From positions 1-64,000 of the IMG/VR virus record IMGVR_UViG_3300020190_000049: DNA of 64,000 bases, one strand, 5' to 3'. This DNA comes from a virus. Each line of letters starts with the position of its first letter. Position 1 is the stretch's first letter. Shown here in pieces: positions 26,989 to 61,846 of the stretch. The translations under genes were made by a program, and so were the position numbers. Below the pieces are notes generated by a model. The model was not told the origin of the DNA and made no database searches. It saw only the letters and a program-made list of their open reading frames with translations.

Positions 26989-27191
26989 AGTAACTAATAC
27001 TCGAAAAGTTTGATCATAGACCGCTTTTGTTAAAAACAGGGTGGTATTACCGTCAGCGATTTTCTGTGTCTGTCAACTCTGAACTATTCGCAAAACCCGT
27101 GTCTATAACCTGGCCATCCACAGTAACTAATACTCGAAAAGTTTGATCATAGACCGCTTTTGTTAAAAACAGGGTGGTATTACCGTCAGCG
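26926..27191. repeat. 133-bp tandem duplication with one mismatch
   Basis: The first copy is 26926-27058 and the second 27059-27191. They differ at one base (A at 26939, G at 27072), which changes Ile to Thr in the SELxDTENR segment. The period is not a multiple of three, so the giant gene frame is shifted. A shared ATTTTCTGTGTCT occurs at the start of both copies. Confidence 0.95.
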
Positions 27192-36100: not shown

Positions 36101-39100
36101 ATAAGTGTCATCTAAAAATTTTCTAGGTAGATATTTTTTATATAAACCTAACTTTGTCGGGGTTGGCGGGATAAAGTTTATAGAAGTAGAAACATATTCT
36201 CTAATTTCTATTTCATCTCCTTCATTTAGATCTAAATTCAACCTCATAAAACCAAAAATAGAATCAAAAGTATAATCTTTTCCATATATTAATTGTTCCG
36301 CGTTTATATAAACATAAACGGCTCTTGAACTAAGAGTTTCTAGATCAAATTTTTCAGATAATGCAAATGTTTTGATTCCTTCATCTTCAACGATATACTT
36401 TAAAGACGTAAACGCACCGCTGCCTATCATATCGCTGCCTGCAAAGGGGCTCGAACTTGTTAAATTATTTCCTATCTCAGTTAGGATCGAATCAACAAAA
36501 TCTCTAGGTTCTTGATTTAAATACAATTCGTCTGCTAATTTAATAAAATTATTTTTAAAATCGGTATACGATTTTTTAGCAAACTGTAAAGATTTTATTA
36601 TATTAATTTCTTTGTCACACAAAAGAACGGTAGAAATTGCCGATGGAGCAGAATGTTTTAAAAACCGTCTGGCCAACTGTTGGAATCCAGATGCGTCTCT
36701 TAGATTACTGGATCCCGGAAAATTACCCACTATGTCATCTCTTAATTCTACGGCTGTTGCTAGATGGTCTGTGGCCTGTCCTAGAGTAAAATTTTCTATT
36801 TTTTGATTTAAAGGATTTTTTTCTAGGCTCAAAGGAATCTCATAATAGCCGGTATCTGGAGGAATATTCGTATAGATTTTAATCGTAACTATATCGCCAA
36901 TGTCAAATTCTCGATCAAAGATAAATCTATTTTCGATCCGTGTATAAGTGTCATTTGATTTTATGCCATTAAGTAAAAAGACAATTTTACTGATATTTTC
37001 ATCATCGGCCGATCTCCAATCTATCGCTGTGGAAACGATCGTATCGGTTCTGTTGGCTATCGTGATACTGTCAATAATAGGCTGTACATAAGACTTGTCT
37101 AAAACTATCCATGCATTAGAATATTTTTCTCTCTCGTATCGATAAAATCCTGTAGATATTTTTTTTGTTAATATTTCTCTACCTATCTTGTATTCAAAAA
37201 AATCAGAATCTAAATTAAAATTAAACCGTATATCTCCCACATTATCAATATTAAGATAACTTATAGAAAATCCTAATTCTGTATCGATTCTGCCGTTTCC
37301 TTGTCTGTAACTTAGAATAGGGGTCCCATTAAAAGTATTGACAGGATAAGTTTCCTGATCCCCAAAACTGATTTCATGTTTATCAAACAAGTCAAAAAGA
37401 GGAGCCTGATTAGCCGAAGATTTTAATTGGCTCTTAGTCCACCCTGTTCCCGTGTAATGATACATTACTCCCCGATTGTTCTTTCCTCTCTTAACTAATA
37501 CACATTCATTTATTACGGAGTCGGCATCGGGTTCTTTGACTAATGTTATCTGTTTTCTATTTCGATGCGTTATGAACTTAACTCGATAAATCTGATTGTT
37601 AACTAAAATATCGGTATCTGCCGTTATGAGAATCCTCGCTCCTTCAAAAAGAAATTCTCCATCGACGATATATCCTGTACTGCCTTCTAAATTACTAAAA
37701 ACGTCTGTGGTAAAATCGTCTATATAATCCACAGATTGTTTTGCTATCTCGCCATGATTGAAAAGTTTTATATCTGGCTGGAATTCAATTATAGGACGTT
37801 TCGCTCTCGATCGTTCGTCTGCGACAAAATCGCTGTTATTCGATCTATGCGCATAATCTAAAACAGATCTATGGAACCATCTATTGTATCGACTCCAACT
37901 GTTACTATCTCTGCTGGATCGATTGATAGTTAGATAATCTTTCTGACCGGGATATAAACTGGCGTCATCGAATGGTTCTGTGTCAAATCCACCGTCATCA
38001 AAAAGCACTTCAGGAACATCTGCAGTATCTATAGGAGAAATAGGCAAGTCATCGAGACTGATTAATCTTATAGATGTTCCAACTCCTTCTACTACAAATT
38101 TTCCGCTTGTTCCAGATTTCGCGTATTCTTTAGGAATAACCTGACCTTGAAATCTCACTACTAATCCATTAGTAAATTCTATGCCGTTACTACTTGTATA
38201 AGTCTGTTTACCAATTATTTCTTTTTCGACATCTATTTTGGTATTAGAATCTATGTCGGCGATGATAAATTTTCCAAAATAATTTGGATCTATCGCACTC
38301 TGATAATAAAGCACATCAGGGGCATCTAATGGAATTTCAAAAGTCAATACGCCCGTTTCTTTTCCTGCACCAGCGACTCCGTCGTTATAATCAAAGGACG
38401 ATGTGTCATAGTAAACATCTACCAATTCCCAATCCTGGCTATTCTCATCTATAGAACTACCGTCAGTCACAGAAATATTTGTTCTAGCCTTCCATATTTT
38501 TCCATCAAACACTACTACTTGCCCGGCGGAATAAGGTAATGCAGGATTATAAAATAACACACCGACGTCTATATTTGTCCTAATAAAGATAGGTTGGCCG
38601 GGAATGTTTAGATTAAATTTATAAGACTGTCCTCTATAAAGAACTAGGTCGGGATTATTTGTCTGCCCATCGGGCGTGAAAATATAGGAGTTGACTCCTA
38701 GGCCTATCCTATATGTGCTGACAACGCTCTGACTCTGTCCTGTTACTGTTACATCTGGCGGAAATTCTGGTATCCAGTAATACTCTCTGTAATTGACAAA
38801 CTTGTCCCAATCAATAGGAGGATTCCAAGTATAATGTTCGTGATCGGTAATCTTATTATCGTTTTCGTTAAAATTGTTAAAGAATCTTAATTGATTTTTA
38901 AAATCTAAATAGTCATAAAAATTTTCGATATTTTGATCTTCGGTGATGACGATTCCAGGTTCTAATTGATATCTGCTGCGCAGAGTCTGATCTGTATCGA
39001 GATAAACATCCGTGGAGTTATACGTCTTACCGTAGCGCCTACCGATATATCCTACTGTCTTATCTAATGTGCCTGGCTGTATTAACGGGTCGATCACCGC

Positions 39101-39202
39101 GCCCATAAATTTAGAATTAGAGTCCGATTGGAATATGATCGGCAACAAATCTACTGTCCTACGTATAGGCAGGCCGCTTTCTGGGAATGTATTATAAGCC
39201 AT
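27053..39202 (-). CDS. Giant virion protein, baseplate/tail (4,049 residues plus C-terminal part)
   Basis: This frame spans over 12 kb. It lies directly downstream of gp6 in the late baseplate transcript, where T4 has gp7, gp8 and fibre-attachment genes, so a baseplate or side-fibre role is inferred. Six segments at about residues 2170-2740 fit FG-GAP-like propeller blades (FGEVLAISPDYKLLAVGSP, FGFALDLDASGRILIVSSP, FGSAVSISPTTERIVVGA). Several inserted modules have VxWKGKLWKAxxNIxxGDGSS and a closing DW, resembling carbohydrate-binding modules. Gly-rich units (GDGTGATAQAYI, GTGKGAKATVTI) near residues 3140 and 3490 resemble beta-helix repeats. Much of the rest is repeated beta hairpins. No signal peptide or membrane segment is seen. 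The final residues run into the 133-bp duplication. Confidence 0.82.
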   Translation of the reverse strand: MAYNTFPESGLPIRRTVDLLPIIFQSDSNSKFMGAVIDPLIQPGTLDKTVGYIGRRYGKTYNSTDVYLDTDQTLRSRYQLEPGIVITEDQNIENFYDYLDFKNQLRFFNNFNENDNKITDHEHYTWNPPIDWDKFVNYREYYWIPEFPPDVTVTGQSQSVVSTYRIGLGVNSYIFTPDGQTNNPDLVLYRGQSYKFNLNIPGQPIFIRTNIDVGVLFYNPALPYSAGQVVVFDGKIWKARTNISVTDGSSIDENSQDWELVDVYYDTSSFDYNDGVAGAGKETGVLTFEIPLDAPDVLYYQSAIDPNYFGKFIIADIDSNTKIDVEKEIIGKQTYTSSNGIEFTNGLVVRFQGQVIPKEYAKSGTSGKFVVEGVGTSIRLISLDDLPISPIDTADVPEVLFDDGGFDTEPFDDASLYPGQKDYLTINRSSRDSNSWSRYNRWFHRSVLDYAHRSNNSDFVADERSRAKRPIIEFQPDIKLFNHGEIAKQSVDYIDDFTTDVFSNLEGSTGYIVDGEFLFEGARILITADTDILVNNQIYRVKFITHRNRKQITLVKEPDADSVINECVLVKRGKNNRGVMYHYTGTGWTKSQLKSSANQAPLFDLFDKHEISFGDQETYPVNTFNGTPILSYRQGNGRIDTELGFSISYLNIDNVGDIRFNFNLDSDFFEYKIGREILTKKISTGFYRYEREKYSNAWIVLDKSYVQPIIDSITIANRTDTIVSTAIDWRSADDENISKIVFLLNGIKSNDTYTRIENRFIFDREFDIGDIVTIKIYTNIPPDTGYYEIPLSLEKNPLNQKIENFTLGQATDHLATAVELRDDIVGNFPGSSNLRDASGFQQLARRFLKHSAPSAISTVLLCDKEINIIKSLQFAKKSYTDFKNNFIKLADELYLNQEPRDFVDSILTEIGNNLTSSSPFAGSDMIGSGAFTSLKYIVEDEGIKTFALSEKFDLETLSSRAVYVYINAEQLIYGKDYTFDSIFGFMRLNLDLNEGDEIEIREYVSTSINFIPPTPTKLGLYKKYLPRKFLDDTYQQPRHVIQGHDGSITVSYGDYRDDVLLELELRIYNNIKQQYDENIFDIDAVLGGYYGNSLFSKMDLDSIVQTEFLNWIADTNIDYVNNVYLDTENPFTYTYSNMTDPTGTKNLPGYWRGVYEWFYDTTRPHDCPWEMLGFSEKPDWWETQYGPAPYTSNNLILWEDLRDGIIRRGSRQGIYDRYKRSSLMSHIPTDGDGKLLDPLNSGLANNFSLINNQGLFVFGDRGPVEYAWRQSSEWPFAVIKALCLLKPFEFITDNLNKSEVVENKLGQTVCRTTEEFFTVSDLILDQTSRNVSGLYLYIIDYLKNKTLDSSKLEKKISNLDIRLSTRNSGFVDPGQQKYILDSKNPSSSSSSVFVPSENYDIIFNVGSSFLTLTYSGVLIEKTDRGWKLSGYDNVNPIFKYFEAVPSQSDPLITIGGVSEDFIEWTANQFYGNGVICRYQTRFYRSLKSHSSTDTFENNNWKQLPSLPIKNSITAFNRRSFNTIKIRELPYNRIFTDVQGVVDFLLGYQEYLKFLGFKFDSYNSELKEAEDWLTSCKEFMFWSKHNWSIGSLLSLSPAAKKIQANLSLGVPDNFLDSFYDYQILRNDGTPLAPRNLDINRGFRSVELSTVDTNDGIYFVKFNLVLKEHVTIFSDRTVFNDVIYDKPTGYRQERIKSRGFRTVDWDGDYTSPGFIFDAVDIQTWQPFTDYKLGDIVAYKSYFWTSKRNQLATAEFNDAYWIKLDSTPTKGLVANFDYRITQFEDYYEADSSGVGSSQRDLSRHAIGYQPREYLQNLAEDEVSQFKLYQGFIKEKGTANAIVKVFDKISRTDDDSVVLKEEWAFKLGDIGGLDQTTEYEFELDKGQFVVNPQPIIVDSGVEREVIEDQYLRIYRSKFTISPIPFDTNINPVDYYTGPSRNAGYVKLDNVDLILRNKDDILNLDISVVRDNSNIWITFDKNSWTILRYNEDPFLSVSGVIKEGQNIRCFTNRPHRLAVGDIVGIQIQNLTGFFKLLEVTNNTFIVTPTSTDPVEIVDSSSAALGLFSVVRYPSYESMNKGEIALLKNGSKLWIDNNGEDRWEVVEKTKQYTDYTLLEYGITDPRGLGKSVIYIDSLKQIAVSVSESNFVMIYTDKVTAGFTNIAVKQIIPIPDGFETAAESVFGEVLAISPDYKLLAVGSPRASGVKSTYREDLVSFRAYLAGEIVLWKGKLWKAKVNIRVGDGSSIDFNSEDWEPATLIEANSIGRNDGYFEQGMVTLYRYTNQQWEPSVNLVSPRQSAYELFGSSISIGVSGNKYHMSISAPGSLDNKGRVYLYYYDGVKWQYFENTNYLGLYDPTIGVPYPTGSIVWWENNFYQALYDNFGDGSTLSIESNDWQRLDAVSTQFSLPTNISIDDDGSTLIEGLLNPDQMAELVKQGDRFGQATAMNRDGSILVVSTPTSDGQYFANYKGVWKPYNEYKPNDVVKYQGGYHKFLTIDSANDESLNQPPDQGDPWINVGDSTYQTAGKLYIYKRDANNRYNLVQTITEQNINNYNDSTADIEIMSGDEFGFALDLDASGRILIVSSPRADVFRQTQGAVYIFNTNSIDDVEFRLVQKLTSFEYLVQKLTSFEYRTNEYFGSAVSISPTTERIVVGAKNSSFDLVTRFIEGTTFDKNKTIFKDSQGFPGQAYVFERKSEGYFLVEKLDTDFVPNESFGESLDCVGNVIVVGSPRYTVDDLIKGNVRLFKKPADVNSLKTISQETKLVDIGRIKNIELYNNVNNIKLGDIDIVDGYKMKILGVADQEIKYKTPYDPAVYMLATPEQVIDESTAWFEKNVGLVWWDLSTVKFINYEQGDLAYRVGNWNAQAEGSSVDVYEWVESVLLPSEWSLLADTVEGLAEGISGQPKHPDDSVFNTRTLFNPNTGQQSGTKYYYWVKGKTTIPDRPERKVAISSVTNFISNPIGTGFPFVAVIDGNKFSASNLTSLMNSDSVLFNIEYFNDQGRINQSHKEYQLLTEGVADSLPTHALETKWIDSLVGYDEVGNAIPDISLPEKQRYGLKFRPRQSIFVDKSRALEGAIDYINNILLQRPFIDLINLGRLQSLDPLPDGNLNEYDIKVDTLIDLEQIGTVRIKKAEFKVNIINGEVDTIDIVDPGFGYRTTPFIKIEGTGKGAKATVTIDNQGKINSITVVNRGKKYTSAFVKIREFSVLVTSDVSLNNFWSIYGWDDVRKTFFRSKSQAYDVTRYWEYVDWWATGYDSQSKIIKEIDNIYLEPTVELEIGQLLRIKEYSSGGWAVLEKTAEGQGDLLGDYNLIGRKNGTLQISSLLYDSVSGRLGYDTTGAYDAGLYDLQPILELRIILQAVKNDIFVDDLRVEWNKLFFNSIRYALSEQTSADWLFKTSFLNAIHNVGDLDQRPTYKNDNLDSYKKYIEEIKPYKTTIREYTSRYTEKQNSGLATSDFDLPAAYSTVAGKILPVDENNDIFNEYPWKAWTDNNGFSITSIEISDGGSDYINVPTVLITGDGTGATAQAYISNGSVRAIRMLTEGRGYTKTPVITLVGGNGSSPNKAKAVAILGNSVVRTLNLTLKFDRIDKIGNYSDYNKTQIFVATGFSAIFNLAFAPNIEKRSITITKNDQLILSSEYVIDLYRSSVDTFDLLRGKIRFLIAPKTGDVIKIDYEINQELFNSIDRIDRYYSPSSGMIGKELNQLMTGIDYGGVRIQGTTFDVTGGWDALPWFIDNWDSVESSADFYYVADGSTTFVVLPYTPSAGQLISVYLKRSGETRPTRIDDPAWTPAWDSAVSTNPNAQMPTFIGDGSTNFVEIHDYLSTQTGDTLIFRTLDSDGSVTISDVNLLDTRISGGSLSNIGGAYVTATGTSAEEIIVDGEKFISPDQVPAPEENIPGQVLDSLSLKVFTTTSPGAAPLQNKIIIGDGITRFFDIGLTIFESSGVMVYIDKVRQEYIGDSTINYSIDFVNNRIEFNTAPAVGSIIEIISVGIGGITLLDYQEFVADGNTTLFLTKAVYDQTFRVLVTVDGQVIDTGFANSSELTDTENR
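31315..31374. repeat. Perfect in-frame 30-bp tandem duplication
   Basis: Copies at 31315-31344 and 31345-31374 each encode ten residues, giving LVQKLTSFEYLVQKLTSFEY in the giant protein. The identity of the copies points to a recent event or an assembly join. It lies between two of the FG-GAP-like blades. Confidence 0.9.
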
Positions 39203-49007: not shown

Positions 49008-49865
49008 ATGACCACGCCAGTTACTAAAATAAAATATCTCACAAATAAAGATCTGTTAAGAGAAATACATCTAAGCAAAAACACATATTGCAGTTTTTCT
49101 AAACCGGAATATAGCGAATACGACACTATAATAACCAGTTTAGAAAAAATCAACATAAGAACTATCGCAGAGGCTAAGAGAAATAGAGCTGCTAGATTAT
49201 CTAAACAAAATCACGAATCTGCTGTGCTCACAGGCGGCAAAAAACTTTCTGCTAAGGAATTTGAAATAGATTATAAAAAAATCGCTAAACAAGATGTGGT
49301 ATTCCGCGTAATGACATTTGAGCATGTACCGTTAGCACCTGGTCGTAAAAAGACTCTGAAGAATACCGCGGACAGCCACGAAAAGGTAAACTTTCCTCCG
49401 TTCCAGCATTGGAAGTTTGACGAAAACGATAATTTGATCTGCGTAGGCAAGAGCCACTGGAAAGGTGGGGTCAAAACTGGTAAATTCAACAAAGAGCACG
49501 GCAGGATGACTGACAATCTAGCCCGCATGTTCCTTAAACTCTGCGAGAGATATGCGACTCGAGGTAATGTCCGTGGATACACCTACAACGACGAGATGCG
49601 TGGACAGGCTATCCTACAGTTAACACAGATTGGATTACAGTTTGACGAGAGTAAATCTGACAATCCTTTCGCTTATTATACTGCTGCTGTGACTAATTCC
49701 TTCGTGCGTATCATCAATATCGAAAAACGCAATCAGAATATCAGGGACGACATATTAGAGATGAACGGTATGAACCCTTCCTGGACTAGGCAGAACAGCG
49801 GTGGAGGGAATTATATAGGTAATAGTGGTGCTACTTCCGGAGAAGGATCAGGCTTTGATGATTGA
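49008..49865 (+). CDS. 55: Late-transcription sigma factor gp55
   Basis: A protein of 285 residues. The C-terminal part (ARMFLKLCERYATRGNVRGYTY, then EMRGQAILQLTQIGLQFDESKSDNPFAYYTAAVTN and SFVRIINIEKRNQNIRDDIL) matches the sigma region 2-like core of T4 gp55, which recognises TATAAATA late promoters with the host RNA polymerase. The core is preceded by about 100 residues (lysine-rich, KNTADSHEKVNFPPFQHWKF) that T4 gp55 (185 residues) lacks, a form seen in marine T4-like phages. TAGGAG lies before the ATG. It is transcribed divergently from the late baseplate operon it should activate. Confidence 0.9.
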   Translation: MTTPVTKIKYLTNKDLLREIHLSKNTYCSFSKPEYSEYDTIITSLEKINIRTIAEAKRNRAARLSKQNHESAVLTGGKKLSAKEFEIDYKKIAKQDVVFRVMTFEHVPLAPGRKKTLKNTADSHEKVNFPPFQHWKFDENDNLICVGKSHWKGGVKTGKFNKEHGRMTDNLARMFLKLCERYATRGNVRGYTYNDEMRGQAILQLTQIGLQFDESKSDNPFAYYTAAVTNSFVRIINIEKRNQNIRDDILEMNGMNPSWTRQNSGGGNYIGNSGATSGEGSGFDD

Positions 49866-49930
49866 TCATGTAGAACAAATTGTAGTAAAATTAAAAGTCT
49901 CCGGATAGATTGCAGATAGGAAAAAACTCT

Positions 49931-50941
49931 ATGGCATTATTTAAAAAATTAGCAGCATTTACCGACATACACTTCGGATTGAAATCGGGTAGTAGGACAC
50001 ACAATCAAGATTGTGAAGACTTTGTAAAATGGTTCTGTGAAACTGCTAGGACAGAAGGTTGTGAAACTGCTATATTCCTAGGCGACTGGCATCATAATAG
50101 AAGTGCTACAGATGTTTCTACCATGAACTACACGCTTTCGAATCTCGAAAGGCTTAGTAAAAACTTCGAAAAGGTTTATTTTATCTTAGGCAACCACGAT
50201 CTATTCTATAAAGACAAACGCGAAATTAATTCTGTAGAATTTATGAGATTGTTTCCTAACGTCATTCCGATTCGAGAACCTTTTACTGGAGGTGATGTCA
50301 CTATTCTACCTTGGCTAGTAGGTGATGAATGGAAGGATGTTCCTCAAATCAAAAGTCGATACATATTCGGACACCTAGAATTGCCATCATTTTACATGAA
50401 CGCCATGGTACAGATGCCGGATCACGGACAATTGCAGCGCAGTCATTTTAAAAATCAAGAATACGTGTTCACTGGACACTTCCATAAACGCCAGCATAGC
50501 GGAAATATCATTTACATGGGCAATGCTTTCCCCCATAACTATGCAGATGCTGGCGACGATGATCGCGGCATGATGATCCTAGAGTGGGGTGGCACACCAG
50601 AATATCGCACATGGCCCGATCAACCGGTCTACAGATTGTACAGGTTAAGTCAAATCATGGATGACAGTGACAATCTCATGAGACCAAAGATGCACTGTCG
50701 TGTCACTATCGATCTTCCTATCACATTCGAAGAGGCTAATTTTATCAAAGAACAGTTTATTCCGCAATATAGTCTCAGAGAACTGATGCTGATACCTGAA
50801 AAAGTAGAAATAGAAAGCAGTTCAACTCCCATCGATATCGCTTTCGAATCAGTAGATACTATCGTCATGAATCAACTGAACGCCATCGATAGTGATGCAT
50901 ACGACAAAGCCTTGTTGCTAGACATATACAAAGATCTATGA
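49931..50941 (+). CDS. 47: Recombination nuclease subunit gp47 (SbcD/Mre11-like)
   Basis: A protein of 336 residues from the ATG at 49931; a TTG 21 bases upstream would extend it but lacks a ribosome-binding site. The calcineurin-like phosphoesterase motifs are present: FTDIHFGLKS, LGDWHHNRS, LGNHDLFYKD and GHFHKRQHSG, with a further His in IFGHLELP. These bind two metal ions. gp47 pairs with gp46 to resect DNA ends in recombination-dependent replication. The next gene overlaps it by four bases, as in other T4-like phages. Confidence 0.92.
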   Translation: MALFKKLAAFTDIHFGLKSGSRTHNQDCEDFVKWFCETARTEGCETAIFLGDWHHNRSATDVSTMNYTLSNLERLSKNFEKVYFILGNHDLFYKDKREINSVEFMRLFPNVIPIREPFTGGDVTILPWLVGDEWKDVPQIKSRYIFGHLELPSFYMNAMVQMPDHGQLQRSHFKNQEYVFTGHFHKRQHSGNIIYMGNAFPHNYADAGDDDRGMMILEWGGTPEYRTWPDQPVYRLYRLSQIMDDSDNLMRPKMHCRVTIDLPITFEEANFIKEQFIPQYSLRELMLIPEKVEIESSSTPIDIAFESVDTIVMNQLNAIDSDAYDKALLLDIYKDL

Positions 50942-52719
50942 CTATTAAAATAAAAAATCTCACAGTACGTAATTTCATGAGCGTGGGCAATCAAACCCAG
51001 GCTATCGACTTTGATCGTGGACAGCTAACTTTAGTCCTAGGTGAAAATCTAGATCTAGGAGGTGATGATTCCGGTGCTCGAAACGGTACGGGCAAGACAA
51101 CAATCATAAATGGACTAAGTTATGCTATCTACGGCCAAGCCTTGACTAATATCAAACGCGACAATCTAGTTAACAAGATCAACGGTAAAGGCATGTTGGT
51201 CACTGTAACTTTTGAAAAAGACGGTGCTGAATACCACATCGAAAGAGGTCGTAAACCTAACTTATTGAGATTTTCAATCAATGGTCAAGAACAGGATCTA
51301 AAAGATTTAGATGAAAGTCAAGGCGACAGTCGAGAAACACAAAAGGCCATAGAAGAAATATTTGGAATGAGTCCTGATATGTTCAAGCATCTCGTAGCTC
51401 TAAACACTTATACAGAACCATTTTTAAGCATGAAGGCTGCAGATCAACGTGCTATTATCGAAGAATTATTAGGCATCACACTGTTAAGCGAAAAAGCAGA
51501 TCACCTCAAAGAGCAGATTAAATTTAGCAAAGATGCTATCGCTACAGAAAACACCAAAATAGAAACTATCAAAATTTCCAACGATAAAATACAGCAGAGC
51601 ATCCAAGCATTAGAGAGAAAACAAAAAATATGGAGCGAAAATAATGCTGCAGCGATCGGAGATCTCGAAACTAGCATACGTCATCTAGAAAAGATCGATA
51701 TCGAAGCAGAGATATCTGCCCACAAATGTTGGGACGACTACAACAAACGCAAGAATCGCAAGCAAGAAGCAGAACGATGGCTCGCCAGCATCATTGCGGA
51801 CAACCAGAAACAAGAAAAACTTATAGAAAAACTTAAAAAAGAAATAGAAAGCCTCGAGGCTCATAAATGTTATGCCTGCGGTCAAGATGTGCATGATAAC
51901 AAACAAGCAGAAATACTCAAGCAAAAAACAGATCAAATCAAAGAAGCGGCTCTGCAGATATTAGCCAACCAGACACAGGAACAAGAACATCAGGACACGC
52001 TGAAAGAAATCGGTGAGATAGAGAATTGTCCGGTAACACAATACGACACTATCGAGCAGGCCTACAATCATCGCAGCACTGTGGAAGGATTACAGAAGGA
52101 GTTGACTGCCAAACAGGTCGAAACTAATCCTTATACCGATCAGATCGAAGAATTATCTAAAACGGCTTTGCAAGAAATCGACTGGGAAATGATCAATGAA
52201 TTGACTAGAATCAAAGATCATCAAGAATTTTTATACAAATTGCTAACAAGCAAGGATAGTTTCGTACGTAAGCGTATTATCGATCAGAATCTAGCATTTT
52301 TAAACCAACGACTAACATATTATCTCGATAAAATCGGCTTGCCGCACATCGTAGAATTTCAAAATGATCTGTCGGTGCTTATCACACAATTAGGCCAGGA
52401 TCTAGATTTTGACAATTTATCTAGAGGTGAACGCAATAGATTGATACTTTCCATGTCATGGGCTTTCCGTGATGTATGGGAAAATCTCTATCACAGCATC
52501 AATCTACTTTTTATTGACGAACTAGTAGATTCGGGTATGGATGCCAGCGGGGTAGAATCTAGTATCGCTGTACTAAAAAAGATGACCCGCGAACGCGATA
52601 AGAATGTTTTCTTGATTTCTCATAGAGATGATCTAACCAGCCGTGTTAACCATGTCTTAAAGGTGATCAAAGAAAACGGTTTCACTTCGTACAGCACAGA
52701 TATTGATATCATAGAATAA
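50938..52719 (+). CDS. 46: Recombination nuclease subunit gp46 (SbcC/Rad50-like ATPase)
   Basis: A protein of 593 residues, close to T4 gp46 (560). It has the Walker A GARNGTGKTTIING (residues 46-58), a long coiled-coil pair with a zinc hook CYACGQ (C311, C314) between, the ABC signature LSRGERNRL (near 494-502), and Walker B INLLFIDELVDSGMD (near 523-535). With gp47 it forms a Rad50/Mre11-type nuclease for end resection. Overlaps link it to both neighbours. Confidence 0.94.
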   Translation: MTIKIKNLTVRNFMSVGNQTQAIDFDRGQLTLVLGENLDLGGDDSGARNGTGKTTIINGLSYAIYGQALTNIKRDNLVNKINGKGMLVTVTFEKDGAEYHIERGRKPNLLRFSINGQEQDLKDLDESQGDSRETQKAIEEIFGMSPDMFKHLVALNTYTEPFLSMKAADQRAIIEELLGITLLSEKADHLKEQIKFSKDAIATENTKIETIKISNDKIQQSIQALERKQKIWSENNAAAIGDLETSIRHLEKIDIEAEISAHKCWDDYNKRKNRKQEAERWLASIIADNQKQEKLIEKLKKEIESLEAHKCYACGQDVHDNKQAEILKQKTDQIKEAALQILANQTQEQEHQDTLKEIGEIENCPVTQYDTIEQAYNHRSTVEGLQKELTAKQVETNPYTDQIEELSKTALQEIDWEMINELTRIKDHQEFLYKLLTSKDSFVRKRIIDQNLAFLNQRLTYYLDKIGLPHIVEFQNDLSVLITQLGQDLDFDNLSRGERNRLILSMSWAFRDVWENLYHSINLLFIDELVDSGMDASGVESSIAVLKKMTRERDKNVFLISHRDDLTSRVNHVLKVIKENGFTSYSTDIDIIE

Positions 52720-52949
52720 TGTCTACAGACTCACACGATCAAATGATACAGGCGTTCCAAGAATATTTTAAATGGCAGGAGCGTTTTGAGTACAGAGGCA
52801 GCGACGAAGCAGGCATCAAGGCAAGATTTTGGTTGGCAGAAATACGCAGACAGGCGATGTTGAGGCGTAAAGAAATACAGGCAAAAAGAGAACAAAGAAA
52901 AACATCCAGAAAAGGCACGAGAGGCAAACCACTGAATATAACTAAATGA
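52719..52949 (+). CDS. Small basic phage protein, function unknown
   Basis: A 76-residue, strongly helical protein with FQEYFKWQERFEYRGSDEAGIKARFWLAEIRR and a basic C-terminal tail (KEIQAKREQRKTSRKG), which could bind nucleic acid. It begins in the last base of gp46 and ends against the GTG of the next gene. It is known from T4-like marine phages without a role. Confidence 0.72.
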   Translation: MSTDSHDQMIQAFQEYFKWQERFEYRGSDEAGIKARFWLAEIRRQAMLRRKEIQAKREQRKTSRKGTRGKPLNITK

Positions 52950-53384
52950 GTGCTGTGGACGTATCAAAACGAGTTCGTAGAAGAAATACCCGAAGGCTAC
53001 ATTGGCTTCGTGTATCTTATCACGAATCTACAGACCGGACAGAAATACATAGGCAAGAAACTAGCACAGTTTAAAAAAACTCGACCACCACTCAAAGGCA
53101 AACGACTTAAAAGAAGATCTACAGTTGAAAGCGATTGGCGCGATTATTGGGGTTCTTCCGATAGGCTCAACGCAGATGTCCAAGCACTAGGTCCGGAAAA
53201 CTTCACTAGAGAAATACTTTATCTTTGCAAATCCAAGGCAGAAATGTCATATCTAGAGGCAAGAGAGCAGTTTGAACGCAGGGTTTTAGAGTCTGATGAC
53301 TATTATAATGGCATTATAAACGTCAGAGTTGGCGGCTCAAACACGCTTAGGCAGCGTCTACAAGAACAATCTAAGGCAAAATAA
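52950..53384 (+). CDS. GIY-YIG nuclease-like protein
   Basis: A protein of 144 residues starting at GTG. GFVYLITNLQTGQKYIGKKL at residues 17-36 is the GIY-YIG signature, followed by a lysine/arginine-rich stretch, then WRDYWGSSDRLNADVQALG, FTREILYLCKSKAEMSYLEAREQF with the expected Glu of the active site, and a C-terminal NVRVGGSN. It is close to the seg-type homing endonuclease-like genes of T4-like phages. The next 500 bases are noncoding and look structured, so an intron-related or mobile origin was considered. Confidence 0.82.
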   Translation: MLWTYQNEFVEEIPEGYIGFVYLITNLQTGQKYIGKKLAQFKKTRPPLKGKRLKRRSTVESDWRDYWGSSDRLNADVQALGPENFTREILYLCKSKAEMSYLEAREQFERRVLESDDYYNGIINVRVGGSNTLRQRLQEQSKAK

Positions 53385-53830
53385 CGCGGTATTTTGGCTA
53401 GCGCAGGCTAATTTCTTGCGCCCATGATAAGGGGAACATGATTCGCCCGGACGGAAATCCTTGCCGCAGAGGTACTCAACCACTATCCTTGACAGGACGT
53501 TAATGGCAAAGACCTTGCTGTATGGTTGTTTGGAGAGCGAAATAGGCAAAATGAGGGGAGAAAAACCCCACGTCTACAGGTATGATAGCAGATATTTGTA
53601 GGCCGCCGTTGTGATAAGACGGAGCTCGAGGTACCGGACAACCGCCTCTGTAATGCTCTACTGCTGTGTGACCGTATGCGACTCGGATAATGCTTCTTAG
53701 CCCTAGGTTGGGCTAAGTGTGACTGGACGATCTGGATAATACTAACTTTGCGCTTCGCGCAAAAAAATTATTACGTCTAATATCGAAATAATTAAAAGAA
53801 AAGAAAGTGCGTTGAGCGCGAGCGAAAACG
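53385..53830 (+). ncRNA. Candidate structured noncoding RNA
   Basis: This is the largest gap without a gene, and by eye it is more G+C-rich than its surroundings up to about 53740. Paired segments on the plus strand include: GCGCA 53401-53405 with TGCGC 53417-53421; a multiloop closed by CAACCA 53477-53482 and TGGTTG 53523-53528 that holds the hairpins TCCT/AGGA (53486-53497) and GCAA/TTGC (53506-53518); GGGG 53555-53558 with CCCC 53566-53569; and TTAGCCC 53697-53703 with GGGCTAA 53710-53716. No good open frame crosses it. No tRNA, tmRNA, RNase P or group I intron core was recognised. The strand is inferred from the neighbours and the terminator after it. It lies 3' of a GIY-YIG gene. Confidence 0.5.
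53747..53763. other. GC-rich hairpin in the noncoding region
   Basis: TTTGCGC at 53747-53753, loop TTC, and GCGCAAA at 53757-53763 form a seven-pair hairpin. It is followed by A-residues rather than T-residues on the plus strand, so it is not a normal plus-strand terminator. It may be a processing or protective hairpin at the end of the RNA. Confidence 0.4.
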
Positions 53831-53831
53831 C

Positions 53832-53853
53832 AAACGAGCGTATGCTCGTTTTT
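53832..53853 (+). terminator. Rho-independent terminator candidate
   Basis: AAACGAGC at 53832-53839, loop GTAT, and GCTCGTTT at 53844-53851 pair over eight bases, and the T-run continues to 53853. The hairpin is G+C-rich enough and followed by T-residues, so it would end transcription of the noncoding RNA before the next gene. Confidence 0.6.
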
Positions 53854-53887: not shown

Positions 53888-56011
53888 ATGAGATTAATGC
53901 ATCTAGAGCCTCAACTAAAACGAAATTATCTATACGAAGGTCTAGGTGATTCTGACAGAACTTCGGCGATGTTATGGGAAACCGCAGGTCACGAACTGCG
54001 AGAAGCAGCACTGACCGCTGATCAAATACAGAATCTGTTCAAAGAGATCGAAGCCGGAGCCACTGCCGCTGGCGACAATAGAACTATGCTAGGCAAAGGC
54101 AAAGACGCTGTGTCGGCGGTCAACAAGGCCTGGGAAGATCTCAAAACAAAGATGCAGGATTCGGGTCCTGTCAAAGGGTTCGATCAGAAAGTCAGCGATG
54201 CGCTCAGCAAGATAGGCATGGGAGCCGCTGAACCAGAATTCAATGGGCAGGTCAATAAATGGGTACAAAAATATCGTGACTTTGCCAAAAAACACCCTAT
54301 CGCGCAGGGCGCTATCTATGCTACATTGATCGCACTGGCAGGTATCACGGGTGCTGGCATAGGTGGTGCTGCGGCGCTGGGTCTGCTCAAGATGGCGGAT
54401 CAACTCTTGCAAGGTAAACGCTTTTCGTCAGCGGCCTATTCAGGTGTCAAGGCAGGCGCCCTGGCATTTGCTGCTTCTAAGTTAGGAGATCTGATTAAAG
54501 GAGCCAAACCAGGAGAACAGATCCCAGTCAGTCCTGAAGATTCTGCAGCGTGGCAAGCGGTCAAACGTGATTTTGAAAATTATGATTATTACCTGCATCC
54601 CTCAAACGACAGTGTAATTGCCGTGCCTAAAGGCATGGGCAATCCGTTTGATCCATCCACGGCTGCTGGAGCCGCTAGAGATCAACTTACAAATATGTCT
54701 GCCGGAGCACTGAGAGATCAAGCAAGATCTATCGCAGATCGAGCTGTAGAAGATGCATTGAAATCGGGAGTAACTAGACCTAACGAACTAGCAGACGCTG
54801 CGGCCATGGCCATGGAAAAAGCAGGTGTAGGCACTAATGTAGGTGGTAAACTGTCTGTGCAGACTGTAGAACGTATCGCCGATCAGGCCGCTGATGCTGC
54901 TAGGTCAGTGTCCAGCGGTGCTGCCAAAGGTGCTGCTCAAAGCGCAGGAACATCTGCCGCTGACATGGCAGCATCGATTTCAGATGTTCCTGCCGGTGGT
55001 GGCATTAAAGCGCCGGATTTTGATGCGGGAGATGCTGTGTCCAAAGCCGCAGATGCTTCATCCTCGATGCCCAAAGGCGCTACATTTAGTCCCGATTATC
55101 TGCAGGGAGTAGTAGACGGAGAAATATCTAGACCAAAGATATCTGCAAGTGATGCTCAAGCCGCTCTAGATTGGCAGGCTCAGAATGGCGGGCAGAGCAA
55201 GATCAATCTAGGCGCCACTGATCCAGTACCACCTGAAGAAGCAGGCAAAACGAGACCGTTCGCTAACAAAACACGCATGCCTGCATCTGATGTGCAGACT
55301 ACCACAGCACCCGATGGTACTACCACTACCACAGGTACTCTCAAAGGTGTGACCAGCGATCAGATCCAGAGCCACCCAGCATACAAAGCAGAAATTGAAC
55401 GATGGGGAGACAACCCAGAAAGCAGGCGAGCCGCGGCAATGAAAGCTCGTGCAGCCTTGCTCAAGGGAGAAATTGGCGCCGGAGACACAGTACCTCCAGA
55501 TCAGGCTGCAGAACAACCTCTGCGATTGAGACCACGCATCAAGCGTCCCGCAGAAAGCCGGACCTATCCTGGACGCAAACTCAGCGAAGGTCAAGTCTAC
55601 ATGGTCATCAATCGTGTCTGTGCGAAAAATCAACAGATGCTGGCAGAAGGACTGATCTTCGAAGGACCTTGGGACGCTATCAAGGGCGCGGCCAGCAAAG
55701 GCATGGACTGGGTCAAGACCAAAGGCAAGAATCTCACTACCAAAGTAACCGCAGACAAACTAACATCGGCCTGGAAGAGTGCAGGCAGTCCCATGGACAG
55801 CAATGCTATAGCAGACCTACTCAAAGCACAAGGTGTCGCCGACACAGTGATATCATCTGTGTACTCACAATTAAAATTACCAGCACCTGGTGCTGCCGAT
55901 CATGCAGGTACTGTAGACATAGAAACCGTTAAACAGATGATCGCTAAATTGCCTACGGATCGTAAGGTAAGATTAATTAATTACATGACCAAACAACTCA
56001 AGGTAGCCTAA
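53888..56011 (+). CDS. Large conserved phage protein, possibly virion-associated
   Basis: A protein of 707 residues; a second ATG three codons on is equally possible since neither has a clear ribosome-binding site. Residues 1-110 are helical (NYLYEGLGDSDRTSAMLWETAG, TADQIQNLFKEIEAGATAAG). Residues 130-220 have a glycine-rich hydrophobic stretch (AIYATLIALAGITGAGIGGAAALGLLK), a candidate membrane segment. The middle is Ala/Gly-rich and low in complexity. A C-terminal domain contains MLAEGLIFEGPWDAIKGAASKGM with LAE-G and IFE-G, matching T4 gp21 protease sites (L/I-x-E before A/G). It overlaps the next gene by one base and follows a late-promoter-like motif. The role is unknown. Confidence 0.72.
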   Translation: MRLMHLEPQLKRNYLYEGLGDSDRTSAMLWETAGHELREAALTADQIQNLFKEIEAGATAAGDNRTMLGKGKDAVSAVNKAWEDLKTKMQDSGPVKGFDQKVSDALSKIGMGAAEPEFNGQVNKWVQKYRDFAKKHPIAQGAIYATLIALAGITGAGIGGAAALGLLKMADQLLQGKRFSSAAYSGVKAGALAFAASKLGDLIKGAKPGEQIPVSPEDSAAWQAVKRDFENYDYYLHPSNDSVIAVPKGMGNPFDPSTAAGAARDQLTNMSAGALRDQARSIADRAVEDALKSGVTRPNELADAAAMAMEKAGVGTNVGGKLSVQTVERIADQAADAARSVSSGAAKGAAQSAGTSAADMAASISDVPAGGGIKAPDFDAGDAVSKAADASSSMPKGATFSPDYLQGVVDGEISRPKISASDAQAALDWQAQNGGQSKINLGATDPVPPEEAGKTRPFANKTRMPASDVQTTTAPDGTTTTTGTLKGVTSDQIQSHPAYKAEIERWGDNPESRRAAAMKARAALLKGEIGAGDTVPPDQAAEQPLRLRPRIKRPAESRTYPGRKLSEGQVYMVINRVCAKNQQMLAEGLIFEGPWDAIKGAASKGMDWVKTKGKNLTTKVTADKLTSAWKSAGSPMDSNAIADLLKAQGVADTVISSVYSQLKLPAPGAADHAGTVDIETVKQMIAKLPTDRKVRLINYMTKQLKVA

Positions 56012-57345
56012 TGAAGATCAACGAGATATTGATAGAATCACAACTGCAGGAAGGACCTCTCCTAAACAAACTAGGATCAGCCATCGGTAAAGGTGTTGGC
56101 ACATTGGCCAAAGGTGTTGGTGCAGTAGCAGGCGGCATCGCAGGTATAGGATCTGCTGTTAAAAAAGGTTATCAGGCCGGTAAAGCGCAGGTAGGTGCTG
56201 CAGGAGACGACGCACCATCGCCTGCAGCAGGGCCTGGGACGACTGCTACTGGAAGTGCTCCAGCGGCGAAACCTGCTGCAGGTTCTACAGCAGGAGCAGC
56301 CAAACCTGGAACACAGACATTAGCCAATCCCAAAGATCCTAACACGGGTACTACCCCTGCTGCTGCCGCAGGCCAAGATGGAGCAGCAGGTGCAGCAGGC
56401 AAACCAGGTGCCGCTGGTGCCGCAGGCCAAGATGGAGCAGCAGGTGCAGCAGGCAAACCAGGTGCCGCTGGTGCCGCAGGCCAAGATGGAGCAGCAGGTG
56501 CAGCAGGCCAAGATGGAGCAGCAGGTGCAGCAGGCCAAGATGGAGCAGCAGGTGCAGCAGGCAAACCAGGTACACCTAAAACCAAACCTCAACCTGTTGC
56601 GGCCGGACCTGCAGATTCTCAAGGAAGAATTGAACCTAAGATGGGATCCACAGCATCTGCTAACGACACACAGTATGCTCAAGCACAGAAAGCCATAGCC
56701 GCACTACAACCAGAAGATCAAAAACAGATTTTAGCGGCATTACAATCTGATCCAAAAGTAAAATCGTCTCTGTCTCAGCAGACTACTAAACAACCTGTCG
56801 CACAAACAGGAACTACCAAAGGTGCTCCAGGTAAACCTACTTTTACAGGAGTTCCTAAGAAAAATCCAACGCCTAAAGGAGAACCACCTTCAGCGACACC
56901 CGCAGCAGAACCCGCACTTACGAAAACTAAGGGTCGTAAAAAACCGGCAGCACCTAGTCAAGCAGAGATTGATGCTGATCGTGAAAGACTTATAGGCCCA
57001 ACCAGTGACAGTATTATCAGAAGAGGACGATCTATAGTCGAACATATTGATGAAGCAGGACTGATGGCCAAACTAGGAACCAAAGTTGGACAGGCCGCAC
57101 AGGCAGTGGGCAAGACCGCAGGCAAAGCAGTTGGCACGGTGCAGCAGGCTGTGCCTGATGCTGATCACGCCAAAGCACTGGTTAAAGCATTTAATACAGG
57201 TAATACCAGTGCTGATCCAAACAGTCGTCCGCCCATACAAGACAGCAGCGGTACAGTACCTAGACCGATCATAGACAAAATAAATCAGCTTAATCTAGAA
57301 CAACGTGCAGAACTGCACAAATTAATTACACAGAAGACCTTATGA
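56011..57345 (+). CDS. Collagen-like repeat protein
   Basis: A protein of 444 residues starting MKINEILIESQLQEGPLLNK. A Gly/Ala/Val stretch follows (LGSAIGKGVGTLAKGVGAVA). Residues 120-190 are collagen-like Gly-x-y triplets (GQDGAAGAAGKPGAAGAA) in five DNA-level repeats. A Pro/Lys-rich linker and a second folded domain follow: IVEHIDEAGLMAKLGTKVGQAA to QLNLEQRAELHKLI. Gly-Lys-Pro triplets are typical hydroxylation sites if a proline hydroxylase acts on it. The LQE-G and IDE-A sequences fit T4 prohead protease sites. Co-transcribed with 53888-56011, it may be an internal or structural virion protein. Confidence 0.78.
   Translation: MKINEILIESQLQEGPLLNKLGSAIGKGVGTLAKGVGAVAGGIAGIGSAVKKGYQAGKAQVGAAGDDAPSPAAGPGTTATGSAPAAKPAAGSTAGAAKPGTQTLANPKDPNTGTTPAAAAGQDGAAGAAGKPGAAGAAGQDGAAGAAGKPGAAGAAGQDGAAGAAGQDGAAGAAGQDGAAGAAGKPGTPKTKPQPVAAGPADSQGRIEPKMGSTASANDTQYAQAQKAIAALQPEDQKQILAALQSDPKVKSSLSQQTTKQPVAQTGTTKGAPGKPTFTGVPKKNPTPKGEPPSATPAAEPALTKTKGRKKPAAPSQAEIDADRERLIGPTSDSIIRRGRSIVEHIDEAGLMAKLGTKVGQAAQAVGKTAGKAVGTVQQAVPDADHAKALVKAFNTGNTSADPNSRPPIQDSSGTVPRPIIDKINQLNLEQRAELHKLITQKTL
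56373..56578 (+). repeat. Collagen-like DNA repeats (54-bp and 27-bp units)
   Basis: Near-identical units start at 56373, 56427, 56481, 56508 and 56535. Each codes GQDGAAGAA, and three of the five are followed by a GKPG extension. Two units are 54 bp and two are 27 bp; the last runs into the linker. Such repeats are prone to expansion and contraction. Confidence 0.93.
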
Positions 57346-58615: not shown

Positions 58616-61600
58616 ATGGCAGAAGTAACTGGCGACCTTGGCGGTCAACCGATCCAATTAAACAATGCATCTACAGAAGCGACTCTGAAAGAGATCCTCG
58701 CGGCGATCTTGCGACAGGGCGTGACCGGCAAAGGCGGCAAAGCACAGAAAGATGTAGAAAAAAAACTCCGAGCACTGGCTGAACAATCACAAAAACTTAC
58801 CAAGGAACAAAAAGAGGCGATCAAAAAACAAAATGACCTAAAAAAGAAAAAAGAAGAAGAAATTAAGCAGGCTGCAGCATTAGGAGAGATTACTAGAACT
58901 GTAGTGGGGGGCTTCACTAATCTAGTCACAGGCATGGCCAACGTGATCAGTACTCTCAGCAAAATGGAAGATTCTCTGACTGCTGCAGCGTCGTCATTGA
59001 GTGCTATTCCTATCGTAGGCGGTACACTGGCTGCAGTGTTTGGAGCGGCCGCCGATGCTGCTGAGCGTACCTACAAGTCCTTCAATGAAGCCGCTAGCGT
59101 AGGTGCTAATTTTGGCGGCAGCATCACAGCCATGGTCAATGCCGCATCTGGTGCGGGCCTTACATTTAATCAATTGTCAGGCATAGTTTCTAGGACTGGG
59201 CAGGATCTAGCGCTGCTGGGTGGCAGCACCGAAGAAGGAGCCAAGCGCCTAGCACAGTTAGGCAAAGAGATCAGAAAGTCACCATTAAATTCTCAATTGG
59301 CCGCGCTGGGCTACACCACTGAACAGATCAACGAAAGCATGGCCAAATACGGCGGTGTTATGGCCAAGACTGGTGCTCTGCAGGGAATGTCTAACAGTCA
59401 GTTAGTAGCGCAAACTGGACAGTATCTACAGAATCTAGATGCGGTGTCAAAACTCACAGGTCTGAACAAAAAAGATCTCGAAGATCAACGTGCCAAGATG
59501 ATGAAGGATTCGCAGATACGTAATACTTTGAGAAAAATGGATGCTGCTAGTCAAGAAGAACTGATGGCTTTCTTACAGACTCTGCCACCGGAACTACAAG
59601 AAGGTGCCAAAGAAGTAATAGCCACAGGAACAGCAACAACAGAAGCGGGTAAAGCAGCACTGCAATATCTACCAGATTCTGGTCGTGCATTTATGCAGAT
59701 GAATGCACAGATACGACAGACCGGTAAGTTTACCAAAGAAAATAATCGAGCATTAAACGAATCTATACAATCAGAAGCCAAACGTGTAGCAGATAGTAAT
59801 TTGGCAGAGAACATGAGACTTCACGGCGACAAATATGCAATGGGAGTTTTCACAGCCATAGACGATGTAGCAGCCAGAGAAAAAAATATAGCACAGGTAC
59901 AGGACGAAGCGGCCAGGGCTGCTAAAGCAGCGAACGATTCGACTGCTGCTAGGATAAAAGGATTCAAAGAACAGATAGCCCAGATCAGTAACTCATTTTC
60001 AATTTTTTTAGTCAACAGCGGATTGTTAGAAACTTTCATGACAGTGTTTCAGAAATTTGTTGGATTTGTTCAAACTGTCGTAATACCTATAGTTCAGTTC
60101 TTAGTGACTCACATCGAAACAGTAGGATTGGTATTAGCAGGTTTAGTCGGGGTTATGATTGCAAATAAAATAGCCATGGAGGCTCTCACTTTTTACACTA
60201 ATTTAGAAACACTGGCTAAGACAAAAGCAGTGATAGCGACGAAAGGATTCGTAGCAAAAATACTTGCAGGAGCAATAACTGCTAGCGCAGCATTGTTCAA
60301 ATTAGCAGCCGGTGTGTTAATCGCTTCACTACCATTTTTGAAAATCGCTGTGCCAATAATTGCATTAATTGCCGCATTCAAACTTTTGTACGATGCAGGA
60401 TTTACTGTAGGAGATGTGCTTGAAGCCACAGGAGACGCTTTTAAAAGAATTTTATTAACGGTCTCGGAAGGATTTCTTTGGTTAATAGATAAACTTACTC
60501 CAGACGCTTCTGATATAAACAAAAAAGTCAAACAGGCACAAAGGGCTCTTAAATTAGAAAGAGAAGAATTAGACGAAAAAGAAAAAGCCAGAGATCAGCG
60601 CAGAAAAGATAAGCGTGCGGAAAGAGGAATAAAGGAAGAAGAAGACAAAGCTACCAAAGAAGGCATAGAACTCCAGGAAAAAGAAAACGCGGCTCGACAG
60701 GCTGGAGGGGCTGGAGGGGCGGGAGGAGCATCAACTGCTGCTCCAACGACTCCTACTGGTCGGCTAGATCTAAGTACTCCGCAGAAGATGTTTGAAAGCG
60801 CTATGCGCAGACAGCAAGGAGCAGCACAACAACCAGGGGCAGCAGCCGTGGCACCTGGTCTAGGAGGAATGGCAGCCAAATTTGAATCAGGAAGAGCCGG
60901 AAGTGCTGCTGTAGGATGGGATTCGACTGGAGGGACCAGTTTCGGCAAGTATCAGATAGCCACGAAAACTGGTACCATGGACAAGTTCATGCAACATCTC
61001 AAGGCCACTAATCCAGAGGCCTTTGAAAGATTATCTAAAGCTGGTCCAGCAGATTCGGGCAAAGATGGCGCATTCGCACAAGAATGGAAAAAACTAGCAG
61101 GAGAAGGAAAACTAGCCGAATCCGAACACGAGTTTATCAAAAAAACACATTATGATGTTGGCGTAGGAAAAGTACAAGATAAAAATCTACAGGATATGAT
61201 CGGCAAAAGCAAAGCCCTGCAAGAAGTCATGTGGTCGACTTCTGTGCAGCATGGTGGTGGTGGCGCAGGCAGCATATTCAACAAAGTTTACAAAGAAGGA
61301 ATGACCGAGCAGGATCTCATCAAGGCCATATATGCTGAGCGTTCTACTAAATTTGGATCTAGTACCGCCGATGTCCAACAGAGCGTGATGAATAGATTCG
61401 CACAAGAACAGCAATTGGCTCTTGGCATGGTCGGAATGCCGACCACTCCTGAAACACAGGTCGCCCAAGCACTAGGCCGAGGAGGCCAACGTGCTCAAAT
61501 GGCACGGGGATCTTTGCCAAGAGGAGCATCAGCGACCCCGACAGCGACCGCAGCCCAAACTGCGTTAGCACAGGCACCTACACCCTCAACTACTCCAACG

Positions 61601-61846
61601 ACTACTCCTACCCAAACTGCACGGGCACCTGCACAAACCCAAGAAGATCCCATAACTCTGCTGGCTAGTTTAAATACAAAGATGGAGACTCTGATAGCAC
61701 TGAATAGAAGAGCAAATGATACGAGATTAAATACAAAGATGGAGACTCTGATAGCACTGAATAGAAGAGCAAATGATACGAGAGACAGCCAACTAAGGGC
61801 TGCTAAAGCATCAGCAGGCGAAGTCACAGCCTGGGTCGCGGCCTAA
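58616..61846 (+). CDS. Tape-measure-like protein with a lysozyme-like domain
   Basis: A protein of 1,076 residues. Residues 45-90 are a charged coiled coil (AEQSQKLTKEQKEAIKKQ). Residues 470-600 hold hydrophobic helices (FVQTVVIPIVQFLVTHI, VGLVLAGLVGVMIANK, IASLPFLKIAVPIIALIAAF) typical of tape-measure proteins. Residues 750-935 match the VgrG3/chitosanase-like glycan hydrolase fold: AAKFESGRAGSAAVGWDSTG (E757 the likely catalytic acid), TSFGKYQIATKTGTMDKFMQ, FAQEWKKLAGEGKLAESEH and HYDVGVGKVQDKN. The last 130 are Ala/Pro/Thr-rich and contain a 57-bp in-frame duplication. Tape-measure proteins set tail length; fused muramidases help DNA cross the cell wall. gp5 here lacks a lysozyme, which fits relocation. 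Confidence 0.8.
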   Translation: MAEVTGDLGGQPIQLNNASTEATLKEILAAILRQGVTGKGGKAQKDVEKKLRALAEQSQKLTKEQKEAIKKQNDLKKKKEEEIKQAAALGEITRTVVGGFTNLVTGMANVISTLSKMEDSLTAAASSLSAIPIVGGTLAAVFGAAADAAERTYKSFNEAASVGANFGGSITAMVNAASGAGLTFNQLSGIVSRTGQDLALLGGSTEEGAKRLAQLGKEIRKSPLNSQLAALGYTTEQINESMAKYGGVMAKTGALQGMSNSQLVAQTGQYLQNLDAVSKLTGLNKKDLEDQRAKMMKDSQIRNTLRKMDAASQEELMAFLQTLPPELQEGAKEVIATGTATTEAGKAALQYLPDSGRAFMQMNAQIRQTGKFTKENNRALNESIQSEAKRVADSNLAENMRLHGDKYAMGVFTAIDDVAAREKNIAQVQDEAARAAKAANDSTAARIKGFKEQIAQISNSFSIFLVNSGLLETFMTVFQKFVGFVQTVVIPIVQFLVTHIETVGLVLAGLVGVMIANKIAMEALTFYTNLETLAKTKAVIATKGFVAKILAGAITASAALFKLAAGVLIASLPFLKIAVPIIALIAAFKLLYDAGFTVGDVLEATGDAFKRILLTVSEGFLWLIDKLTPDASDINKKVKQAQRALKLEREELDEKEKARDQRRKDKRAERGIKEEEDKATKEGIELQEKENAARQAGGAGGAGGASTAAPTTPTGRLDLSTPQKMFESAMRRQQGAAQQPGAAAVAPGLGGMAAKFESGRAGSAAVGWDSTGGTSFGKYQIATKTGTMDKFMQHLKATNPEAFERLSKAGPADSGKDGAFAQEWKKLAGEGKLAESEHEFIKKTHYDVGVGKVQDKNLQDMIGKSKALQEVMWSTSVQHGGGGAGSIFNKVYKEGMTEQDLIKAIYAERSTKFGSSTADVQQSVMNRFAQEQQLALGMVGMPTTPETQVAQALGRGGQRAQMARGSLPRGASATPTATAAQTALAQAPTPSTTPTTTPTQTARAPAQTQEDPITLLASLNTKMETLIALNRRANDTRLNTKMETLIALNRRANDTRDSQLRAAKASAGEVTAWVAA
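61670..61783. repeat. Perfect in-frame 57-bp tandem duplication
   Basis: Copies at 61670-61726 and 61727-61783 each encode 19 residues (LNTKMETLIALNRRANDTR) at the C-terminal end of the tape-measure protein. The copies are identical by eye. They lie in a coiled-coil-like segment. Confidence 0.93.

Follow-up and report, generated by a model that had tools for sequence, protein, structure and literature searches.

A predicted pseudoknotted RNA with twin heptamers downstream of segE in a T4-like aquatic phage

Structured RNAs next to endonuclease genes are known from the HEARO and OMEGA RNAs, and in the ribosome hop of T4 gene 60 two matched triplets lie about 50 nt apart, with a stop codon and an intervening hairpin. 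Phages and prophages also encode large, ornate RNAs, GOLLD and ROOL. GOLLD combines a constant 3' part with a variable 5' part, and in OLE RNA a symmetric A-A helix joins the chains (PMC12286853). The closest described relative of the locus presented here is the Polynucleobacter-1 motif (Rfam RF01718), one of a 2010 set of 104 candidate RNAs, reported from Burkholderiales and from fresh water and estuary and regarded as a probable RNA (Weinberg 2010, PMC2864571). That paper gives the motif no function and marks it as probably cis-regulatory (PMC2864571).

The window, that is, the whole stretch of DNA analysed, comprises 64,000 nucleotides of a 68,679-base virus record. The phage is T4-like and aquatic, and homologue comparison predicts that 53386-53853 on the + strand of the window encodes a single RNA, about 470 bases long, conserved and pseudoknotted. 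The RNA spans from directly 3' of the stop codon of a segE-like GIY-YIG gene, which ends at 53384, to a terminator-like hairpin; the next gene lies at 53888. The gene order is gp55-gp47-gp46-76-aa ORF-segE-RNA, followed by T4-type structural genes:

49008-49865, + strand: gp55-like late sigma factor (PHROGs, phrog_12791)
49910-50941, + strand: gp47-like nuclease subunit (PHROGs)
50938-52719, + strand: gp46-like nuclease subunit (PHROGs)
52719-52949, + strand: 76-aa ORF of the upstream run, between the gp46-like gene and segE
52950-53384, + strand: segE-like GIY-YIG gene, 144 aa (Pfam SegE_GIY-YIG, 126.9 bits; phrog_447)
53386-53853, + strand: whole structured RNA, ~468 nt, from homologue alignment and covariation; exact transcript ends putative
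53396-53531, + strand: Rfam RF01718, Polynucleobacter-1 (cmscan 85.8 bits, cut-off 37, E 8e-17; model positions 1-141)

RF01718 is the sole Rfam family matched across the whole window. The match is well above the cut-off and meets the full consensus structure of the family, the alignment spanning model positions 1-141 with few broken pairs. It covers only the first third of the RNA, which is about 3.4 times longer than the family; the model stops approximately 320 bases short of 53853 and includes neither the 5' pseudoknot P1, nor any helix 3' of 53531, nor the twin heptamers, P15 and P16 described below. The initial annotation had found no known family here and raised the possibility of a new class. 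An Rfam search, which it had proposed, shows that this does not hold for 53396-53531, which is RF01718, and does hold for the remaining ~330 nt with the pseudoknots and twin heptamers, and for the marine relatives, none of which Rfam covers. Thus, the first third is known, and the full extent of the RNA and its twin sites are new. Twenty-one of 23 records carry RF01718, in one copy each; the two records without it are marine.

The same Rfam search returned no group I or group II intron core and no covariance-model match to HEARO or OMEGA RNAs. The suggestion that the element might be an intron relic is not supported: no intron model matches, and the RNA lies 3' of the segE stop codon and not within a gene. 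ARAGORN reported neither tRNA nor tmRNA, and tRNA-like ends with a tag frame were not found. Like HEARO and OMEGA RNAs, the RNA adjoins an endonuclease gene, but its neighbour is a GIY-YIG protein and not HNH or RuvC-like. It resembles GOLLD and ROOL in being a large ornate phage RNA, and GOLLD also in combining a constant 3' part with a variable 5' part, but is shorter, sits beside segE and not tRNAs, carries twin heptamers and matches neither family in Rfam.

The association with segE is close, with segE directly upstream in 121 of the 122 loci that were fetched by RNA sequence and have at least 600 nt upstream. Using the SegE protein (144 aa) as a query we collected 80 viral contigs, and nearly all of the closer relatives extending past segE continue into a similar RNA. 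Scans for two patterns within the RNA gave many matches, counting only those listed, so the family is common. All copies that we found are in viral contigs. In bacterial genomes one pattern had no match and a second only chance matches, and none of 369 genomes from a single bacterial class contained the RNA; no positive control responded in either case. The isolated phages with SegE relatives that we examined have no such RNA at the equivalent place. DNA searches of isolated phages gave no match with the window or a distant member as query, and a single chance-like match of 41 bases with a marine member.

A profile built from the scan sequences yielded 231 full-length copies, 176 of them distinct and 149 under 95% identity (mean identity 67%). 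Column covariation on the 149 sequences gave helices P1, P2, P4 and P6-P12; hairpins P13 and P14 come from the alignment, and P15 and P16 lie 3' of the heptamers. The predicted elements are:

53386-53389 (GCGG) with 53464-53467 (CCGC), + strand: pseudoknot P1; 4/4 pairs change on both sides, 93.7% of cells paired
53401-53405 with 53417-53421, + strand: hairpin P2; 5/5 pairs change on both sides
53477-53482 with 53523-53528, + strand: P4, CAACCA/TGGTTG; covariation; encloses P6
53502-53507 with 53517-53522, + strand: P6, inside P4; covariation
53556-53558 with 53567-53569, + strand: hairpin P7; 2/3 pairs change on both sides
53572-53576 with 53599-53603 and 53579-53584 with 53591-53596, + strand: hairpin P8; 10/10 counted pairs change on both sides
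53585-53591 (P8 loop) with 53661-53667, + strand: pseudoknot P9; 5/6 counted pairs change on both sides, 96.3% paired
53608-53612 with 53638-53642 (into the P12 loop), + strand: pseudoknot P10
53622-53625 with 53655-53658, + strand: P11
53628-53632 with 53644-53648, + strand: P12; P10, P11 and P12 are 97.6 to 100% paired, with changes on both sides in all three
53685-53691, + strand: heptamer copy 1, GGATAAT, after ACTC
53696-53717, + strand: hairpin P13, CTTAGCCC/GGGCTAAG, between the heptamers; alignment, little covariation
53734-53740, + strand: heptamer copy 2, GGATAAT, after ATCT
53747-53763, + strand: hairpin P14, TTTGCGC/GCGCAAA; alignment
53809-53831, + strand: hairpin P15, GCGTT/AACGC around GAGCGnnAGCGA; GNNA-type loop, possible tandem G-A pairs
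53833-53850, + strand: terminator-like hairpin P16, AACGAGC/GCTCGTT, then TTT; 7/7 pairs change on both sides, 98.9% paired

The 3' strand of P1 sits in a hairpin loop, which makes P1 a pseudoknot; a weaker short contact joins 53397-53399 and 53406-53408. P4 is among the best-supported helices, four of its six pairs covarying at 17 to 28 standard deviations above background. A multiloop closed by CAACCA/TGGTTG had been drawn from the single sequence, and is real in that P4 encloses an additional stem; the terminator-like hairpin proposed at the end corresponds to P16. P15 is the least sure in the pair count because a variable linker 5' of it spoils the alignment: all 5 pairs change on both sides, and 66% of cells are paired where the alignment register is poor. 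Its motif GAGCGnnAGCGA is present in 182 of 235 loci.

A pair count with another tool, covering 83 homologues and 66 proposed pairs, found standard pairs in 93.1% of cells and both-side changes in 53 of the 66 pairs. The covariation score was 0.508, as against 0.064-0.083 with slid partners, and shuffles never scored as high. Folding energy alone would have missed the RNA (53385-53770 folds no better than shuffled sequence, z = -0.48), and we therefore base its support on covariation. G-T cells outnumber A-C cells 808 to 66 over the proposed pairs, identifying the + strand as the RNA strand. There is no conserved coding frame in the 149 homologues, where stop-free runs (median 50 codons on the + strand and 64 on the - strand) are not longer than in shuffled copies (55). 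The initial annotation had placed a structured RNA in the gap next to a seg-type nuclease, at coordinates matching those of the whole RNA, in a region without a gene; it had advised collecting homologues and looking for compensating base changes, and stated that a lack of covariation or a conserved coding frame would count against the proposal. The homologues show the covariation and have no such frame, and the structured RNA is borne out.

The top covariation signals in the 149 sequences include column pairs that cannot base pair and always carry the same letter. These columns form two heptamers, 47-61 nt apart and outside all helices found. The copies are identical in 148 of the 149 RNAs under 95% identity and in 175 of the 176 distinct RNAs; 76 of these 176 were retrieved by a scan that ignored the heptamer. 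The sole exception, L053, has GGATAAA as its first copy. Ten heptamers occur in all: this GGATAAA, and AGATAAT, GGATAAT, GCATAAT, GGATGAA, AGATGAA, GGATGAT, AGATGAG, GAATAAT and GAATGAT. The heptamers must have changed at least 38 times on a tree that leaves out their columns. All 149 RNAs carry A at position 3, U at position 4, A or G at position 5 and A at position 6, and positions 1 and 5 are only ever A or G. The preceding letters are fixed yet unlike, ACTC before copy 1 and ATCT before copy 2, and the two letters 5' of these also co-vary between the copies, less strictly. The identity is unlikely to stem from one repeat having been copied onto the other, since four fixed, copy-specific letters lie inside the covarying stretch and copying would need to pass over them. 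It is most simply read as a need for both copies to fit one common partner.

We searched for this partner within the RNA and in phage genomes. Within the RNA, no further column shows pairing and covariation with the heptamers, and no base covaries with them in the 600 nt upstream of the RNA, segE region included; likewise, no SegE residue clearly tracks the heptamer. Comparison of own phages with others showed no enrichment of the heptamer or of its complement, in the flanks or across 17 phage records covered completely or for the most part. These 17 records show no orthologous gene with a shared heptamer site near its start and no complementary target of the kind expected for an antisense-type trans-acting small RNA. 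With a 13-nt complement, own sequences score no better than swapped ones, and the own-class highs are the RNA itself. The late promoter NATAAATA, in records where it is prominent, has no variant linked to heptamer class. As the phage searches found no partner, it is probably outside the phage, or a protein.

In marine SegE relatives the equivalent position is occupied by a different RNA, without an Rfam match (0 of 15 marine-scaffold loci). A pattern for the heptamer start ACATGA revealed a twin module in at least 80 marine copies; this pattern fixed the first six heptamer bases and left only the seventh free, and the seventh is the same in both copies in 77 of 80 among the matches listed. Among the matches listed with enough upstream sequence, segE lies upstream of the marine RNA in 48 of 55. 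Covariation in the marine scaffold is weak. Two more scaffolds with a twin module occur 3' of segE in L037 and L076, which fit Rfam and the main groups poorly. L236 and its ~92% identical relatives L230 and L272 differ in their 3' modules, as though by exchange of the module.

We lean, at somewhat less than even probability, toward a trans-acting RNA with two copies of one recognition site for a host molecule. The gp55-gp47-gp46-segE run would give rise, at its 3' end, to a stable phage RNA of ~470 nt that stops at its own terminator. Both heptamers would bind the same partner, and the RNA might work in trans as a two-site binder: a decoy, sponge or antisense RNA. The partner would most likely be a host RNA or RNA-protein complex, as none was found in the phage genomes; it would differ between hosts, and the heptamers would follow host changes. 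Covariation across the scaffold and the recurrence of the twin module on a second scaffold argue for a two-site binder, and the trans role draws on the absence of a cis partner. Against it, the tight link to segE could mean a role in cis; and plain pairing with a changing RNA would be expected to bring pyrimidines to heptamer positions 1 and 5, where only A and G occur. Less probable is that the RNA is a cis element, serving the gp55-gp47-gp46-segE transcript as its structured 3' untranslated region and terminator; it would protect that transcript or tune its expression, and would set it apart from the late structural genes downstream. Its location right behind segE in 121/122 loci, its terminator-like end and the marking of the motif as probably cis-regulatory (PMC2864571) all suit such an element. 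However, the identical, co-changing heptamers are left unexplained, their complement is absent from the segE region and the structure far exceeds a terminator's needs.

Like-with-like contact between parallel strands, of the heptamers with each other or with another chain in a GOLLD/ROOL-like self-assembly, would demand identical copies and make their identity structural. OLE RNA has its symmetric A-A helix between chains, and GOLLD likewise combines a conserved 3' part with a less conserved 5' part (PMC12286853); yet mixed-sequence pairing of this kind is rare and GOLLD, ROOL and OLE are not matched in the Rfam search, so we regard self-assembly as improbable. The heptamer is also readable as a sense codon NNA, a stop codon UAA or UGA and one base, consistent with the letters at positions 3 to 6 in 149/149 RNAs, and the RNA could on this basis be a decoy for a host toxin or a component of translation, tying up ribosomes or release factors or titrating a host enzyme that cuts RNA. 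The layout recalls T4 gene 60, with two matched triplets 5' of a stop, about 50 nt apart, and a hairpin between; unlike gene 60, the RNA has no open frame, a stop follows both copies and the scaffold is non-coding. No reading frame reaches the heptamers, the copy spacing is not a multiple of three and the codon reading may be chance, which leaves such a decoy very unlikely. By analogy with OMEGA RNAs, the RNA might instead guide SegE to DNA, its constant neighbour being a full-length GIY-YIG protein. This we consider the most far-fetched of the alternatives: the SegE relatives examined in isolated phages lack an adjacent RNA of this kind, SegE residues do not clearly track the heptamer and seven bases are insufficient for guiding alone.

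Two sites co-changing in 175/176 RNAs are a strong sign of recognition. It is possible, and we say so a little more tentatively than for the trans role itself, that these RNAs form a new phage class that reads one changing partner via two identical heptamers, is carried on two or more scaffolds and keeps a constant place next to segE in T4-like phages of aquatic origin. RF01718, unexplained since 2010, gains a full length, a gene neighbourhood and a handle on function. Such a class would show the use of a large RNA behind late sigma factor and recombination genes in abundant aquatic T4-like phages.

The window also holds several other unusual genes. A 4049-aa frame (27053-39202, - strand) that contains FG-GAP repeats and weakly matches a carbohydrate-binding module is probably a giant fibre or adhesin. 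A QueE-like radical SAM protein (2837-3706, + strand) may indicate that the phage DNA contains modified guanine; another radical SAM protein is encoded at 8164-9432 (- strand). Downstream of the RNA, a 444-aa protein with collagen-like repeats (GAAGQDGAAGAAGKPG; 56011-57345, + strand) resembles tail fibre families, and a 1076-aa protein (58616-61846, + strand), whose gene adjoins T4-type baseplate and portal genes, has a domain resembling the C-terminus of the type VI secretion spike VgrG3.
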